Shown: positions 27,049-33,140 of the stretch, in pieces | How the letters are laid out: each line of letters begins with the position of its first letter | How positions within the stretch are numbered: the first letter of the stretch is position 1 | Assembly: GCF_029889805.1 (NCBI RefSeq) | Contig: NZ_JARANT010000015.1 | Coordinates: 1-41,887 of the forward strand | Reading direction: 5' to 3' | Length of the DNA stretch: 41,887 nucleotides | DNA from: Halorubrum sp. Boch-26 | Lineage (GTDB): Archaea; Halobacteriota; Halobacteria; Halobacteriales; Haloferacaceae | The notes under the pieces: model-generated | The model's input: the letters and a program-made list of their open reading frames with translations, nothing else | Databases searched by the model: none | What the model was told of the DNA's origin: nothing | Program-made: the position numbers and the translations under genes

Positions 27049-28052
27049 CCCCGCCGGTCTCTCTCCCGACGACCGCGCTGATTCCCCTGCTGAACGCCCC
27101 CGTTGAGCTCCTCTCGCGGCTCGTCGGGCTGTGGAGCGACGGGCTCGGCTGGGTCGGCGACCGGCTCGGGATCGCGATGCTGGAGTACGTCTTCATGCAC
27201 CACGCGTTCCTCGTGGGCGCGCTCATCGCCGTGATGGCGCCGCTGATCGGCACCTTCCTCGTCCACCGGCAGCTCGCGCTCATCGGCGACGCGCTCGCGC
27301 ACACCGCGTTCGCGGGGGTCGCCGTCGGGCTGTTCGTCAACTCGCTGCTCGGCACGGGGATCTCGCCGTACGTCACCGCGATCGTCGTCGCCGTGATCGC
27401 CGCCTTGGCGATCGAGCTGATCGCCGAGACCACCGACGCGTACAACGACGTGTCGATGGCGATCGTGCTCTCGACCGGGTTCGCGCTCGGCGCGGTCCTC
27501 ATCAGCCTGAACACCGGCGGGCTCGCGGTCGGGATCAACCAGTACCTGTTCGGAAACCTCTCGACGGTCTCGCGGGAGAACGCCGTCCTGCTGGTCGTCC
27601 TCTTCGCGATCGTCTCGCTGGTCGTCACGATCACCTACAAGCAGCTGCTGTACGTCACGTTCGACGAGACGGCGGCCCGCGTCGCCGGGATCGACGTCCC
27701 GTGGTACAACCGTCTGATGACGACGCTGACCGCCCTCGTCGTCGTCGGCGCGATGCAGATCATGGGCGTCATCCTCGTCGCGGCGATGCTCGTCGTCCCC
27801 GTCGCGGCCGCCGCGCAGCTCGCCCGCGGCTTCCGCGAGGCGCTGCTCGCGTCGGTCGTGCTGGCGCAGATCGCGGTGGTCGCCGGGATCACGCTGTCAT
27901 TCAACTACAACACGACCGCCGGGGGCACGATCGTCCTCGTCGCCGTCGGCGTCTACATCGCCGCGGTGCTCGCCGGGAAGGTCCAGTCGCGGCGCGCGGG
28001 CGACGAGGTCCCGGAGCGCGCCGACGACGCCGAGAAACCGACGAGCGACTAG
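27045..28052 (+). CDS. Metal ABC transporter permease (ZnuB-like)
   Basis: Inner-membrane channel subunit of the ABC-3 family, 335 aa, starting with GTG 27045 inside the ATPase stop. After an amphipathic N-terminus the domain begins with LEYVFMHHAFLVGALIAVMA, then HRQLALIGDALAHTAFAGVA, the segment that contacts the ATPase. FGNLSTVSRENAVLL and FDETAARVAGIDVPWYNRLM follow, then QIMGVILVAAMLVVPVAAA. Eight to nine hydrophobic segments fit the family. The stop TAG forms the palindrome CTAG with the stop of the convergent exporter gene (28049-28052), leaving no intergenic space. Confidence 0.94.
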   Translation: MTPPVSLPTTALIPLLNAPVELLSRLVGLWSDGLGWVGDRLGIAMLEYVFMHHAFLVGALIAVMAPLIGTFLVHRQLALIGDALAHTAFAGVAVGLFVNSLLGTGISPYVTAIVVAVIAALAIELIAETTDAYNDVSMAIVLSTGFALGAVLISLNTGGLAVGINQYLFGNLSTVSRENAVLLVVLFAIVSLVVTITYKQLLYVTFDETAARVAGIDVPWYNRLMTTLTALVVVGAMQIMGVILVAAMLVVPVAAAAQLARGFREALLASVVLAQIAVVAGITLSFNYNTTAGGTIVLVAVGVYIAAVLAGKVQSRRAGDEVPERADDAEKPTSD

Positions 28053-30574
28053 TCCGCCCGTTCAGCCGACTCGTCGCGAAGCCCGCCGTCGAGCCCCAGC
28101 CCGACGCGGTCGCCGTACCGGTTCCAGACGACAACCAGCGACGGGACCAGCAGGATCGAACAGAGGTACGCGTACAGCACGCCGAGCGCGAGCAGCACGC
28201 CGAAGTCCCGCAGGAGCGGGATCACTGCGAGCCACAGGACGCCGAGCCCGCAGACGGTCGTGAGCATGCTCCCGGTGAGCGCCCCGCCCGTGCCCGCGAT
28301 GGTGACGTCGAGCGCCTCGTCGACCGCCTTGCCGGCCTTGAACTCGTCGACGAACCGGTGGACGAAGTGGACGGTGTAATCCACCCCCAGCCCGATCGAC
28401 ACCGAGAGGATCGGCGCGTTGATCGGCGTCAGCGGGATATCGAACAGCCGCATCGACCCGACGAGCAGCCCGACCGTGACGAGCACGGGGACGAGGTTGA
28501 GGAGGCCGTAGACGGCCTTCCCCTCCAGGTAGGCGTACGACAGCGCGAGGAACACCGCGGTGAGCCCGAACGCGGCGAACAGGCTTCGGATCGCGGAGGT
28601 CGTGAGCCGGTCGATCACGGCCTCGTTGACGACGAGATCGCCGGTCGGCACCGCCTCCAAGGGGGTGCGCTCGGCGAGGTCGCGGACGTCCGCGACCGCC
28701 TCGGAGTTGTCGACGCCGGGGCGGATAGTGTAGTCGATCCGCGCGCTCCCGCGATCGGCGGCGAGGTACCCGCGTGCTTGGCCCCGGGCGGGCGAGTCGA
28801 GCAGCGCGTCGTACACCTCGTCGACGTCGCGGTCGGGGACCCCGGTGCCGAGCCGGTCGTTGCGATCCACGAGCGCGCTGAACTCGGGGTCCCGTTCCGC
28901 TTGGTCCCGAATGACGGTCACGACGCTCGTGGACGCGGCGCGCCGCTCGTCGGTCGTCGCGAAGGTGTCCGGCGGGTTGCGCGTGGTCCGGTCGATCAGC
29001 TCCAAGGCGTCGTCGTCGCGCACGGACTGGTCGACGTACAGCGTCACGCTCCCGACGAAGCTCTGCTCGAACTCCTCTTCGAACAGCGAGAGCACCCGGA
29101 GGAAGGTGTAGTCGGTCGGCGCGAACGGCTCCGGCAGGTTCGAGTACGTCTCCAGCCGGTCCTCGTCGGGGAAAAAGGCCTCCTCGGAGAACTCGGTGTT
29201 CACGCCGGTCCCGTACGCGCCCCCGACCGCCCCGCCGACGAGCAACACGGCGACGACCGCCACGGGAGCGACCTTCGAGAGGTCGACGCCGACGCGCAAC
29301 ACGCGCCCGAGCCGCGAACCGCCCGACCCGAGCGCGGTCGTCCCGAACTCGGGGATCGGGAGCCGCTCGCGCCAGCGGTCGACGAGCACCTTCGTCGCCG
29401 GGAGGAACACGCCGAACACCGCGAGCGTGAACGTGATCCCCGCCGCGGCGACGATCCCGAAGTCCCGGTTCGGCTCGAAGGGGCTCACCACGTTCGACAC
29501 GAGCCCGAACACGGTGGTGATCGTGACGAGCAGGAAGGCGATCAAAAGCTGGTCGGTCGTCGTCCGCATCGCGGCCGCGATCGAAAGCCCCTCGCCGCGC
29601 TCCTCCCGATAGCGGTTGACGATATGGATCCCGAAGTCGATCCCGACCGCGAGCAGCAGCGGGAAGACGGTGATGAGCGAGTCGGAGAAGGGGATCCCCG
29701 CGTACCCCATGAACCCGAACGTCCATAACAGCGACAGCAGGAGGGCGACGAGCCCGATCCCCATGTCGATCGGATCGCGGTAGGCGAACACGAGGAAGCC
29801 GAGGATGAGCAGCAGCGCCGCGGGGAAGACGATGATCGCGGTGTCGCCGAGCAGCGCCGTGATCTCCGACTGAAGGATGCCGTCGCCGAAGAGGACGGCG
29901 TTGTCACCGGCCTCGTTGCCCGGGACGGAGTCGACGACGGCGACGCTCTGCGTCTGCAGCTCGGTCACCCGACCGGTCGTCGCCGACTCGGGCAGGTCGT
30001 AGGTGATACCGACGATGGCGGCGTCGGCTCGCTGGGCGGTCGGATTGTAGTCGACGGACACCTGTGCCGCGACGGCCCCGGACGCATCGGCGTCCGTGAT
30101 CGCCGCCCGCAGCTCGGCCGGCGTCGCCTCCGCGACCGCGTCGCGGCGCTCGCCCGGCGCTTCGGCGGACGGGTCGAGCTGTCTTGCGATCGCGTCCGCG
30201 TGGCTCGTCGTCGAGCGTACCCGGAGAGTCGACCGCGACTCCAGCCGATCCTGCGTCTCCAGGACGCGGATCAGCGTCGACCGCGAGAGCACGTTGTCGT
30301 CGGTGACGATGACCTGCGCCGACGTCGCGGACCCGCCTATCGACGTCTCGAACTCCTCGTCGATGTCGTCGAGCGCGCGCTGCGCGGGGATGTCCTGCGT
30401 GAACTGGTCGGCGCCGGCCGAGGTGGTGATCCCCGCCAGACCGCCGACGGCGACGACGCTGACGAGGAGGAAGACGGCGATCACGGCCGCCGGTCGGTCC
30501 GTGACGAGCGCGTCGACCCGCTCGACGATCCGGTCGGCCGCAGTCACGGCCGCCTCCGTCGGCTCCGGGCCCAT
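28049..30574 (-). CDS. RND superfamily (MMPL-type) exporter
   Basis: Large membrane protein of 841 aa with the classic duplicated RND plan: TM1 at about 30-50, an outward domain (50-240), helices 2-6 (245-390), TM7 (about 450), a second outward domain (475-665) and helices 8-12 (680-825). Each half has the proton-relay helix, GIDFGIHIVNRYREERGEG and GLGVDYTVHFVHRFVDEFKA, with the conserved acidic residue. RND/MMPL proteins export lipids, hydrophobic compounds or solutes using ion gradients; the substrate is not readable. It lies 42 bases downstream of a secreted NEW3-like protein and probably forms an export system with it under TetR control. No separate promoter is seen. Confidence 0.92.
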   Translation of the reverse strand: MGPEPTEAAVTAADRIVERVDALVTDRPAAVIAVFLLVSVVAVGGLAGITTSAGADQFTQDIPAQRALDDIDEEFETSIGGSATSAQVIVTDDNVLSRSTLIRVLETQDRLESRSTLRVRSTTSHADAIARQLDPSAEAPGERRDAVAEATPAELRAAITDADASGAVAAQVSVDYNPTAQRADAAIVGITYDLPESATTGRVTELQTQSVAVVDSVPGNEAGDNAVLFGDGILQSEITALLGDTAIIVFPAALLLILGFLVFAYRDPIDMGIGLVALLLSLLWTFGFMGYAGIPFSDSLITVFPLLLAVGIDFGIHIVNRYREERGEGLSIAAAMRTTTDQLLIAFLLVTITTVFGLVSNVVSPFEPNRDFGIVAAAGITFTLAVFGVFLPATKVLVDRWRERLPIPEFGTTALGSGGSRLGRVLRVGVDLSKVAPVAVVAVLLVGGAVGGAYGTGVNTEFSEEAFFPDEDRLETYSNLPEPFAPTDYTFLRVLSLFEEEFEQSFVGSVTLYVDQSVRDDDALELIDRTTRNPPDTFATTDERRAASTSVVTVIRDQAERDPEFSALVDRNDRLGTGVPDRDVDEVYDALLDSPARGQARGYLAADRGSARIDYTIRPGVDNSEAVADVRDLAERTPLEAVPTGDLVVNEAVIDRLTTSAIRSLFAAFGLTAVFLALSYAYLEGKAVYGLLNLVPVLVTVGLLVGSMRLFDIPLTPINAPILSVSIGLGVDYTVHFVHRFVDEFKAGKAVDEALDVTIAGTGGALTGSMLTTVCGLGVLWLAVIPLLRDFGVLLALGVLYAYLCSILLVPSLVVVWNRYGDRVGLGLDGGLRDESAERAD

Positions 30575-30616: not shown

Positions 30617-32290
30617 TCACCGCCGCCGATAGCGGACGACGGCTCCAGCGCCGGCGACGACGACGAGGAGGCCGACGGCGATCGGGACGAGCGGAAGCCC
30701 GCCGTCGTCGGTCGACTCCGTCACCTCGACCGGATACTGGGTGACGTCCGAGATCCGGTCGTTGCCGCGTTCGTCGTCGTAGCGGAAGTCCAACTCGATC
30801 GGGTGGGTCTCGACGCTCGCGCCGGACGAGGCGGCCACCTCGAAGCTGATCTCGGTCGACTCGCCCGGCGCCAGTTCGTCGATGAACGCCTCGTCGTTGG
30901 GGGCCGAGAGCGGGCTGTCGGCGTACAGCCCGGCGTTGATCGACGAGAGCGTCTCCGGCCGCTGGTTGGTGATCTCGAAGGTGACCCGTCGCGTCTCGCC
31001 GGCCGGGACGGTCGCGTTGTTCGCGACGAGGGCGAACTCGGGCTGGCGCGGCGCGACTTCGATCCGACGGGTCTCGTCGACCGCGATGGTCGAATCGCCG
31101 TTCGTGTACTCGGTGGTGAACCGGAACTGACGGGGGCCGGGGTCGGCGCTCCCGCTCACGTCGGCGTCGAACGAGAACTCGACGGACTCGCCCGCCGAGA
31201 TCTCCGGGAGCGCGTACCGCCGCTCGCCGATCGTCACGCGGTCGCTCTGCGGGTCGGCGACGAGCACCGCGTCGTCGACGTCGAGCGGCCCCTCGTTGGT
31301 GAGCGTCCCGCTAACGGCCCCGGAGTAGCCGACCTCTAAGCTTCCCTCCACCCCGTCGATCGAGAACGACTGTTCGCCGATCGGCACCACGCCGGCCCGA
31401 GAGGAGGGAGAGGTCTCGTCGATCCCGTCCGGGTCCCGATAATCGACGGACGTGACGAGCGCGTACGCTCCCTCGCCGAACGACGAGGATATCGTGGAAT
31501 CAAACGTCACGGTCCGGTTCTCTCCGGGCGCCCAGTCGCCGACGAACGTCTCGGCGCTCCCGTCGCCGACCACCGCCGCGCTGCTGGTCGTCGTCCCGGA
31601 GACGACCGCGTCGCGGGCGGCCTCGTCGCCGACGTTCCGGAGCGTCGCGGTCACGTCGCCGCCCCCGCCGACCTGGGCGTCGGTGTCGGTCTCGACGATC
31701 GCGAACCGCGCGCCGTCGTCGACGACGATCGTGACGTCGAAGCGGTCGGTGCCGCGCCGGTCCTTGTGGTCGTTGAACTCGGGGATGACCTCGAAGGTGT
31801 ATCGGTAACGGGCCGTCACCTCGACCTCGTACTCCCCGTCCGGCACGTCGTCGGGGACCGTAACGTCGAGCGGAACCTGGACCGGGCTCGCCTCGGTTCG
31901 CACGTCGCCGACGACGGTCCGACCGTCGCCGACCTCGATCGGTACGTCGCCGTCGTCGATCTCCAGCGTGAGCCCGCGTGCCGTCGTCACCCGCGAGTCG
32001 AGCTGGTTCCCGAACACCATCTGCCCGGTGTTGAGGATGTCGAGGGTCACCGTCGATTCGGCGCCGCTCGGCACCGTTCGCTGGGAGGCGAACAGTTCGA
32101 GCGCGGGTGATCCGCGGATCTGTCGATCCGTCGTCTGCGCGGCGATATCGTCGTCTGCAAGGGAGGAGGAGGGCGTGGGCGCATCACCTCCCGCGGGCGC
32201 CGCGGCCCCAGCGAACGCGGTGGCGCCGACGAGGGCCGTAACGGCGACGGCCACCAGTACGAGCGTGCCGGCCCGTGCGAGCCGACTCAT
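30617..32290 (-). CDS. Secreted, membrane-anchored NEW3/COG1361-like multi-domain protein
   Basis: A surface protein of 557 aa from ATG 32290. Residues about 4-30 are a signal helix (LARAGTLVLVAVAVTALVGA). The body contains three to four Ig-like beta domains of the kind found in COG1361/NEW3 proteins, with recurring patterns such as VTATLRNVGDEAARDAVVSG, GAVSGTLTNEGPLDVDDAVL and RRVTFEITNQRPETLSSINA. The end has a helix (LPLVPIAVGLLVVVAGAGAV) and a basic YRRR stop-anchor, so the body faces outside. Such proteins sit beside MMPL exporters in haloarchaea and may act as periplasm-like adaptors; this is inference. The start overlaps the stop of a 28-codon upstream ORF as ATGA. Confidence 0.85.
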   Translation of the reverse strand: MSRLARAGTLVLVAVAVTALVGATAFAGAAAPAGGDAPTPSSSLADDDIAAQTTDRQIRGSPALELFASQRTVPSGAESTVTLDILNTGQMVFGNQLDSRVTTARGLTLEIDDGDVPIEVGDGRTVVGDVRTEASPVQVPLDVTVPDDVPDGEYEVEVTARYRYTFEVIPEFNDHKDRRGTDRFDVTIVVDDGARFAIVETDTDAQVGGGGDVTATLRNVGDEAARDAVVSGTTTSSAAVVGDGSAETFVGDWAPGENRTVTFDSTISSSFGEGAYALVTSVDYRDPDGIDETSPSSRAGVVPIGEQSFSIDGVEGSLEVGYSGAVSGTLTNEGPLDVDDAVLVADPQSDRVTIGERRYALPEISAGESVEFSFDADVSGSADPGPRQFRFTTEYTNGDSTIAVDETRRIEVAPRQPEFALVANNATVPAGETRRVTFEITNQRPETLSSINAGLYADSPLSAPNDEAFIDELAPGESTEISFEVAASSGASVETHPIELDFRYDDERGNDRISDVTQYPVEVTESTDDGGLPLVPIAVGLLVVVAGAGAVVRYRRR

Positions 32291-32373
32291 CTCCCGCCCC
32301 CGTCGCCGTCCCCGTCGACCGCGGTCGAGCCTCGAGCCGCCGATCGACCGCCGAATGCCTCGCGTCGAGTCAT
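32287..32373 (-). CDS. Possible leaderless upstream ORF, 28 codons
   Basis: ATG at 32373 opens a 28-codon frame (MTRREAFGGR at its start, DGDGDGGGR at its end) that stops in an ATGA overlap with the main gene at 32290. A TATA-like TTAACAC (32395-32401, minus strand) lies 22-28 bases upstream of this ATG, so a leaderless transcript would begin right here. No in-frame start in the main gene's frame is closer to the TATA. It may be a real leader that delivers ribosomes by re-initiation; chance in GC-rich DNA is also possible. Confidence 0.4.
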   Translation of the reverse strand: MTRREAFGGRSAARGSTAVDGDGDGGGR

Positions 32374-32384
32374 ACGGTCGTATG
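32371..32384. promoter_or_regulatory. Inverted repeat CATACG-GT-CGTATG at the predicted transcription start
   Basis: Arms of 6 bases with a 2-base spacer. One arm contains the ATG of the upstream ORF, placing the repeat over the expected start of the exporter transcript. It is a candidate second operator, separate from the TetR-like palindrome. Confidence 0.4.
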
Positions 32385-32394
32385 GATCGCTCCC

Positions 32395-32401
32395 GTGTTA
32401 A
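32395..32401 (-). promoter_or_regulatory. TATA-like box of the NEW3-RND operon
   Basis: TTAACAC on the minus strand, 22-28 bases upstream of ATG 32373 and 6 bases from the TetR-type palindrome. Confidence 0.5.
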
Positions 32402-32407
32402 GCGTGT

Positions 32408-32425
32408 TGAATGAACGTTCAATCA
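32408..32425. promoter_or_regulatory. 18-bp palindrome, likely operator for the TetR regulator
   Basis: TGAATGAAC-GTTCAATCA has only one mismatched pair across its dyad and closely resembles known TetR-family operators (TGAATGA...TCATTCA type). It lies 6 bases from the leftward TATA (32395-32401) and 7 bases from the rightward TATA (32433-32439), so it would cover both BRE elements and let one protein shut off both transcripts. Confidence 0.75.
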
Positions 32426-32432
32426 GGGCCGA

Positions 32433-32439
32433 TTTATAC
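32433..32439 (+). promoter_or_regulatory. TATA box of the tetR gene
   Basis: TTTATAC, 21-27 bases upstream of ATG 32460, as in leaderless haloarchaeal genes. Confidence 0.75.
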
Positions 32440-32459
32440 GTGGCCGCGGTACGTCGCCC

Positions 32460-33140
32460 ATGCACGACCCGTTCGCGGAGCCGACCGACACCCGTCAGGC
32501 CATCCTCGGGGCGGCGTTCCGCGCGCTCTGCGAGCACGGGTACGCCGACCTCACGATCAGCCGGATCGGCGAGGAGTTCGACAAGAGCCCGTCGCTCGTC
32601 TACCACCACTACGACGGGAAAGACGAGCTGCTCGTCGACCTGCTCGGCTTCCTCCTCGACGGATTCGAGGCGTCGGTGTCGGCCGGCGAGTTCGACCTGA
32701 CGCCCCGAGAGCGGCTCGACGTTTACCTCGCGGCGACGACGGAGCCCGGGTCCGTCGACGACGAGTACGCGCCGGACGCCGAGTTCCTGACCGTCATCAT
32801 CGAGCTCCGGGCACAGGCCGCCAGCGACGACGCCTACCGCGACCACTTCGACCGCAGCGACCGCGTGTTCGAGGCGTTCCTCGAACGGACCGTCCGCGAG
32901 GCGGCGGCCGCCCTCGACGCGGGGAGCCCGGCCGACGCGAACCTCGGCGACGCAACCGACGCGCCTCACGAGCCGTCTCGGATAAGCTCGGCGGAGGTCG
33001 CCTCTACGCTGCAGACGCTCGCGATGGGCGGGATGCTCCGCTGGGCGACGACCGCCGACCGCGACTGGGCGGACGGCACCCGGCGCGGCACCCGAAAATA
33101 CGTAGAGACGATGCTCCCGCGGGTCGACCCGGAGAAGTGA
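32460..33140 (+). CDS. TetR family transcriptional regulator
   Basis: DNA-binding repressor of 226 aa. The N-terminal TetR helix-turn-helix spans about 8-55: TRQAILGAAFRALCEHGYAD, LTISRIGEEFDKSPSLVYHH, YDGKDELLVDLL, a textbook match. The remainder is the all-helical ligand and dimer domain, with a loop rich in Ala/Asp/Gly (about 145-175) and an end EVASTLQTLAMGGMLRWATT. The gene is divergent from the NEW3-RND operon and has the palindrome 32408-32425 beside its own TATA. Autoregulation and repression of the exporter are therefore likely; the inducer is probably a substrate of the exporter. Confidence 0.94.
   Translation: MHDPFAEPTDTRQAILGAAFRALCEHGYADLTISRIGEEFDKSPSLVYHHYDGKDELLVDLLGFLLDGFEASVSAGEFDLTPRERLDVYLAATTEPGSVDDEYAPDAEFLTVIIELRAQAASDDAYRDHFDRSDRVFEAFLERTVREAAAALDAGSPADANLGDATDAPHEPSRISSAEVASTLQTLAMGGMLRWATTADRDWADGTRRGTRKYVETMLPRVDPEK

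Follow-up and report, generated by a model that had tools for sequence, protein, structure and literature searches.

In streptomycetes, a divergent gene within 200 bp of the regulator gene is the usual pattern for local repressors of the TetR family (PMC3511530). In Haloferax volcanii, HVO_A0466/A0467 encode an RND permease with an Ig-fold partner, and the pairing of an RND permease with a secreted beta-domain protein is reported to be widespread in haloarchaea (PMC11349517). As for translation, overlapping genes in Haloferax are strictly coupled, and Shine-Dalgarno motifs are non-functional in 5'-UTRs, yet they aid reinitiation (PMC6728339). Haloarchaeal promoters are described as carrying a TTWT box together with a WW -10 element, and uORFs of 15-31 codons are reported in long 5'-UTRs of Haloferax volcanii (PMC4983044).

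The locus studied here lies in a stretch of 41,887 nucleotides from Halorubrum sp. Boch-26 (the window; contig NZ_JARANT010000015.1). With TetR, QacR and the streptomycete set (PMC3511530) it shares a TetR_N protein, a divergent target within 200 bp, a palindrome between the two promoters and a transporter as the target; it differs from them in that the promoters are of the archaeal TBP/TFB type, both predicted to be leaderless, and in that two BRE/TATA elements flank the predicted operator. Like HVO_A0466/A0467, the window has an RND permease gene beside a gene for a secreted beta-domain protein; for the Haloferax pair induction by iron starvation is reported and TetR is not mentioned (PMC11349517), whereas the pair in the window has a divergent tetR and an operator of its own. 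A stop/start overlap is shared with known coupled overlapping genes, which often carry a Shine-Dalgarno motif in the upstream gene, but the upstream partner here is a predicted leaderless uORF without a conserved peptide and not a full gene. The uORFs of Haloferax volcanii are likewise short ORFs in haloarchaeal transcript leaders; the section of PMC4983044 on them gives single-species predictions in leaders of 150-250 nt and describes no conserved stop/start overlap. Local control by TetR is a known kind of regulation; the coupled uORF is the newer part.

Gene products and layout of the locus

The tetR gene (32460..33140, plus strand), whose start at ATG 32460 is predicted to be leaderless, encodes a TetR-family regulator of 226 aa; the TetR_N helix-turn-helix of Pfam matches its product at 36.5 bits against a cut-off of 24, and the nearest solved structure is 3crj. 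On the minus strand, the NEW3/CARDB gene (30617..32290, start ATG 32290) encodes a secreted beta-domain protein of 557 aa with a hydrophobic, signal-like N-terminus and with matches to NPCBM_assoc (39.8 bits) and CARDB (39.7 bits), both above the Pfam cut-offs. The permease gene (28049..30574, minus strand, 841 aa) matches Pfam MMPL in two stretches at 118.7 bits against a cut-off of 20.5, which places its product in the RND/MMPL superfamily; the best NCBIfam relative is the HAE3 family, for which the TIGR00921 score of 227.5 bits stays below the membership cut-off of 351.9. Between the tetR ATG (32460) and the uORF ATG (32373) there are 86 bases, and 169 between the tetR ATG and the NEW3 ATG (32290); the divergent target is thus within the 200 bp that characterize local regulators of the TetR family.

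More specific identities for the TetR protein were rejected: the two NCBIfam BetI models gave 33.3 vs 118 and 32 vs 201.3 bits, and the FadR model (Bacillus type) gave 19.7 bits against a cut-off of 200. The operator of Bacillus FadR, which is itself TetR-type, is an 18-bp site with TGAATGA arms, and an earlier sequence-only reading of this DNA had likened the palindrome between tetR and NEW3 to TetR/FadR-type sites. The FadR part of this likeness concerns at most the look of the site, since the score of the protein falls far short of that model's cut-off; the target also differs from that of Bacillus FadR in being an exporter.

The predicted operator and its two core promoters

The predicted TetR operator TGAATGAACGTTCAATCA is an 18-bp near-palindrome at 32408..32425, with 8 of the 9 pairs of its dyad matched and one mismatched; it lies between two divergent TATA boxes, exactly where the sequence-only reading had put it. 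The spacings given by that reading were also correct: the left AT-rich box (TTAA, minus strand, 32401-32398) is 6 bases away, and the right one (TTTATA, 32433-32438) 7 bases. Its claim that the operator overlaps both BRE sites has to be withdrawn, however; the operator abuts both BRE positions instead. The left core promoter, which comprises the BRE position and a TATA-like box (ACACGCTTAAC in the window and ACACGCTTATG in most relatives), occupies 32397..32407 on the minus strand, and that of tetR on the right, with its BRE position and TTTATA box, 32426..32438 on the plus strand. Occlusion of the BRE would therefore need the footprint of the bound protein. The single dyad mismatch is almost invariant in Halorubrum, and symmetric versions of the site occur in other genera.

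The left TTWT-type box is found 25-28 nt before the uORF ATG 32373 and the right box about 22-27 nt before the tetR ATG 32460, and both distances fit haloarchaeal promoters; within Halorubrum, the distance from the AT-rich box of tetR to the tetR ATG hardly varies. From the operator edge to the uORF ATG 32373 there are exactly 52 bases; relative to this ATG, TTAW occupies -28 to -25, and the A at -10 is 98% conserved. Box and -10 A fit the haloarchaeal elements (PMC4983044). The leftward TATA box had been assigned to the NEW3-RND operon: the box is there, but the first start codon that it serves is the uORF ATG at 32373, not that of NEW3 at 32290.

The operator occurs as a single copy in the whole 2.76-Mb genome, and shuffles of the window gave zero matches at up to 3 mismatches. 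Literature searches returned nothing relevant for the operator sequence and no direct match for haloarchaeal TetR operators or Halorubrum transcript starts. A second inverted repeat at 32366-32389, inside the interval considered in the earlier reading, is not conserved and was set aside as probably due to chance.

Conservation of the predicted operator and its loss with tetR

Regions upstream of tetR homologues were compared across many haloarchaea. The earlier reading would have been refuted, by its own account, if related intergenic regions did not conserve the palindrome, but conservation proved to be strong; in Halorubrum the site is nearly invariant, and its distance from either start codon is almost fixed. 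Across 44 loci, the pairwise difference per site is 1.25% in the operator and 9% in the adjoining BRE/TATA, while the spacer reaches 46% and the four-fold sites of tetR 36%. Among 52 Halorubrum genomes, the operator is present with at most one mismatch in 44 of the 45 that have a tetR orthologue, and in 0 of the 7 that do not (Fisher p about 6e-8, a value that ignores relatedness; the compared genomes are related, and the presence counts are not independent). The lone exception, G148, has an operator differing at two bases (L025). In a search of 170 genomes of the family, Halorubrum genomes had one copy at most, and in the Halorubrum loci examined the operator is always beside tetR. A palindromic operator that stands by the regulator's own gene and is conserved together with the protein is characteristic of TetR local regulators, and such a pair is found here. 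We also observed a near-identical site at 1501-1518 of L096 (genome G042), with no TetR homologue within this 3-kb locus; the nearest tetR match in G042 is about 2 kb from the site.

Natural loss of tetR provides a further comparison. Five of the seven Halorubrum genomes without the tetR orthologue have no close NEW3 orthologue, only distant paralogues, while the other two (G108 and G118; loci L155 and L156) have kept NEW3 and RND with tetR gone. An HD gene is now directly upstream of their NEW3-RND operon, and unrelated sequence replaces the operator up to its edge, whereas CAACACGCTTAT is preserved, CTTAT still stands 29 nt from the start codon, and the uORF remains too. As the operator was lost with tetR and the promoter was kept, only the former depends on tetR. 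The junctions of L155 and L156 are alike, so the loss of tetR was probably a single event.

Beyond Halorubrum, TetR homologues at 33-50% identity that have a KSxSL(V/I/L)YHHYDGKD-like recognition helix often come with the same 18-mer, which in several other genera is located directly before the tetR start codon, unlike its position in Halorubrum; in L093, where the helix is altered (DLSKSTFYHHY), the sites are of the CGAACGAACGTTCGGTCG type. Not every TetR homologue whose helix is similar comes with the site: for some, the sequence within 160 bases of the start contains none. The link of site to recognition helix across genera is thus strong, although not perfect.

These comparisons bear on a different interpretation, in which the palindrome is the site of a global regulator or a core promoter element and the neighboring TetR is incidental. 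The site does adjoin both core promoters and is conserved like a promoter element; such an element would nevertheless hardly be limited to one copy per Halorubrum genome beside tetR, be absent where there is no tetR orthologue, disappear with tetR while the promoter stays, and take up different positions relative to tetR in other genera. We regard this interpretation as very improbable, and the comparisons argue instead that the adjacent TetR almost certainly binds 32408-32425. Control of both genes from one operator, as the sequence-only reading had proposed, is likewise well supported by a site that is conserved, is lost with tetR and follows the recognition helix.

TetR is likely to act as a repressor of both promoters. 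Some TetR-family proteins do activate, and the site is upstream of both TATA boxes and not over a start, as might be expected if TetR bound the site but activated the exporter operon, or regulated its own gene only. This is rather unlikely, as the site directly adjoins the two BRE positions and a dimer bound there would be expected to block TFB/TBP, as the site sits at the tetR start codon in several genera, and as divergent TetR regulators of streptomycetes within 200 bp are usually repressors (PMC3511530).

A predicted leaderless uORF and its probable coupling to NEW3

The left promoter should yield a leaderless, unannotated uORF of 28 codons (MTRREAFGGRSAARGSTAVDGDGDGGGR; 32287..32373, minus strand), the TGA of which overlaps the NEW3 ATG as ATGA (32290-32287); the sequence-only reading had overlooked it. 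In 43 of 44 Halorubrum-type loci the first stop of this frame meets the NEW3 start, 42 times as NTGA and once as TGATG; L155, L156 and L039 add three more coupled loci, giving 46/47 in total. A conserved stop/start overlap of this kind is a mark of a pair coupled by termination and reinitiation. The lack of in-frame stops within the uORF was not counted as evidence, since it follows from how the uORF is defined. There are 15 distinct uORF lengths, from 27 to 77 codons and all in frame, and divergence by codon position reveals no third-position excess of substitutions; together, the varied lengths in frame and the missing excess indicate that the frame is kept and the peptide is not. In most species a Shine-Dalgarno-like GGAGG is found about 6 bases before the NEW3 start, while the window has only a weak G-rich variant; in coupled pairs such a motif is common without being essential.

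Single loci show how the uORF has changed. In L050, L121 and L155, tandem repeats with units in multiples of three bases lengthen its middle and leave the frame unbroken. L004 (NEW3 start at 2345 on the reversed locus) is the only Halorubrum-type locus in which the uORF stop is lost; ATGG replaces ATGA, so that the uORF runs on inside NEW3. In L039 (Halorubrum persicum), a deletion fuses the NEW3 start to the RND end, out of frame, and has left the operator, the uORF and tetR unaffected.

To assess the uORF beyond this locus, we scanned for a coupled frame of 10-90 codons, with ATG or GTG as start and with a TATA-like box 23-31 bases before it. Such a frame was found in 63 of 98 NEW3 loci, many of which are related Halorubrum loci, compared to 2 of 45 tetR and 0 of 25 CDF loci; candidate start codons per locus are slightly more frequent for NEW3 (1.2 vs 1.0). 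By these limits a leaderless coupled uORF is predicted for both NEW3 paralogues in the genome of the window, L168 (where it starts with GTG) and L169, and further coupled uORFs, outside the strict limits, are present in L061, L063, L083, L093 and L095. Many NEW3 paralogues of other genera lack the uORF, which is therefore recurrent but not universal.

At this G+C few stop codons occur, and a Ser or Thr as second residue is enough to produce ATGA; the uORF might thus be a chance open frame in GC-rich DNA, with NEW3 translated from an ordinary 5'-UTR. We find this improbable, considering that 15 lengths are all in frame with the stop meeting the NEW3 start in 46/47 loci, that control genes rarely show a coupled uORF, and that both the uORF start and its spacing from the TATA box are conserved. 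The uORF is, in our judgment, probably translated and coupled to NEW3. That it would encode a functional small protein of the exporter is highly unlikely, even though MTR recurs as the first three residues and GG.R in the last few: these conserved ends coincide with signals at the nucleotide level (the 5' end and the Shine-Dalgarno stretch), substitutions are without third-position excess, the middle expands by tandem repeats (L050, L121, L155), and sequences are unrelated between genera.

Proposed mechanism and significance

We suggest that the adjacent TetR, as a dimer or a pair of dimers, occupies 32408-32425 and would there cover the flanking BRE/TATA, repressing the exporter operon to the left as well as the leaderless tetR, until a ligand releases it from the operator. 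With the operon on, the left transcript would begin at ATG 32373; ribosomes would translate the 28-codon leaderless uORF, the peptide itself being presumably unimportant, terminate at its TGA (32289-32287) and reinitiate at the NEW3 ATG that overlaps this stop. Given the coupling of overlapping genes and the behavior of Shine-Dalgarno motifs in Haloferax (PMC6728339), a leaderless uORF that ends on the NEW3 start is a plausible route for ribosomes, and the conserved overlap points to termination-reinitiation as the way in which NEW3 is translated. As a whole, a one-operator TetR switch combined with a coupled uORF is the explanation that we consider likely on the basis of these sequence comparisons.

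A wider proposal, which we advance with only slight preference, is that haloarchaeal NEW3-RND operons use an obligatory leaderless uORF as a ribosome-delivery device, selected for its frame and stop position and not for its peptide; it would allow translation of a gene that does not begin at the transcript start but downstream of it, where leader Shine-Dalgarno motifs fail, here under the control of a one-operator TetR switch. The locus supplies an archaeal pair of TetR and operator that is strongly supported, comes with an evolutionary deletion control and would be useful for haloarchaeal inducible promoters, and the uORF is a directly testable answer to how haloarchaeal mRNAs are translated when the first long gene is well downstream of the transcript start.

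In other haloarchaeal genera, a different palindrome, TTTGTAGAAATTTACAA, is found just before the TATA-like box of NEW3-RND paralogues (upstream of NEW3 in L130, L134, L136, L137, L144, L147, L148 and L151); it is probably the operator of another regulator.
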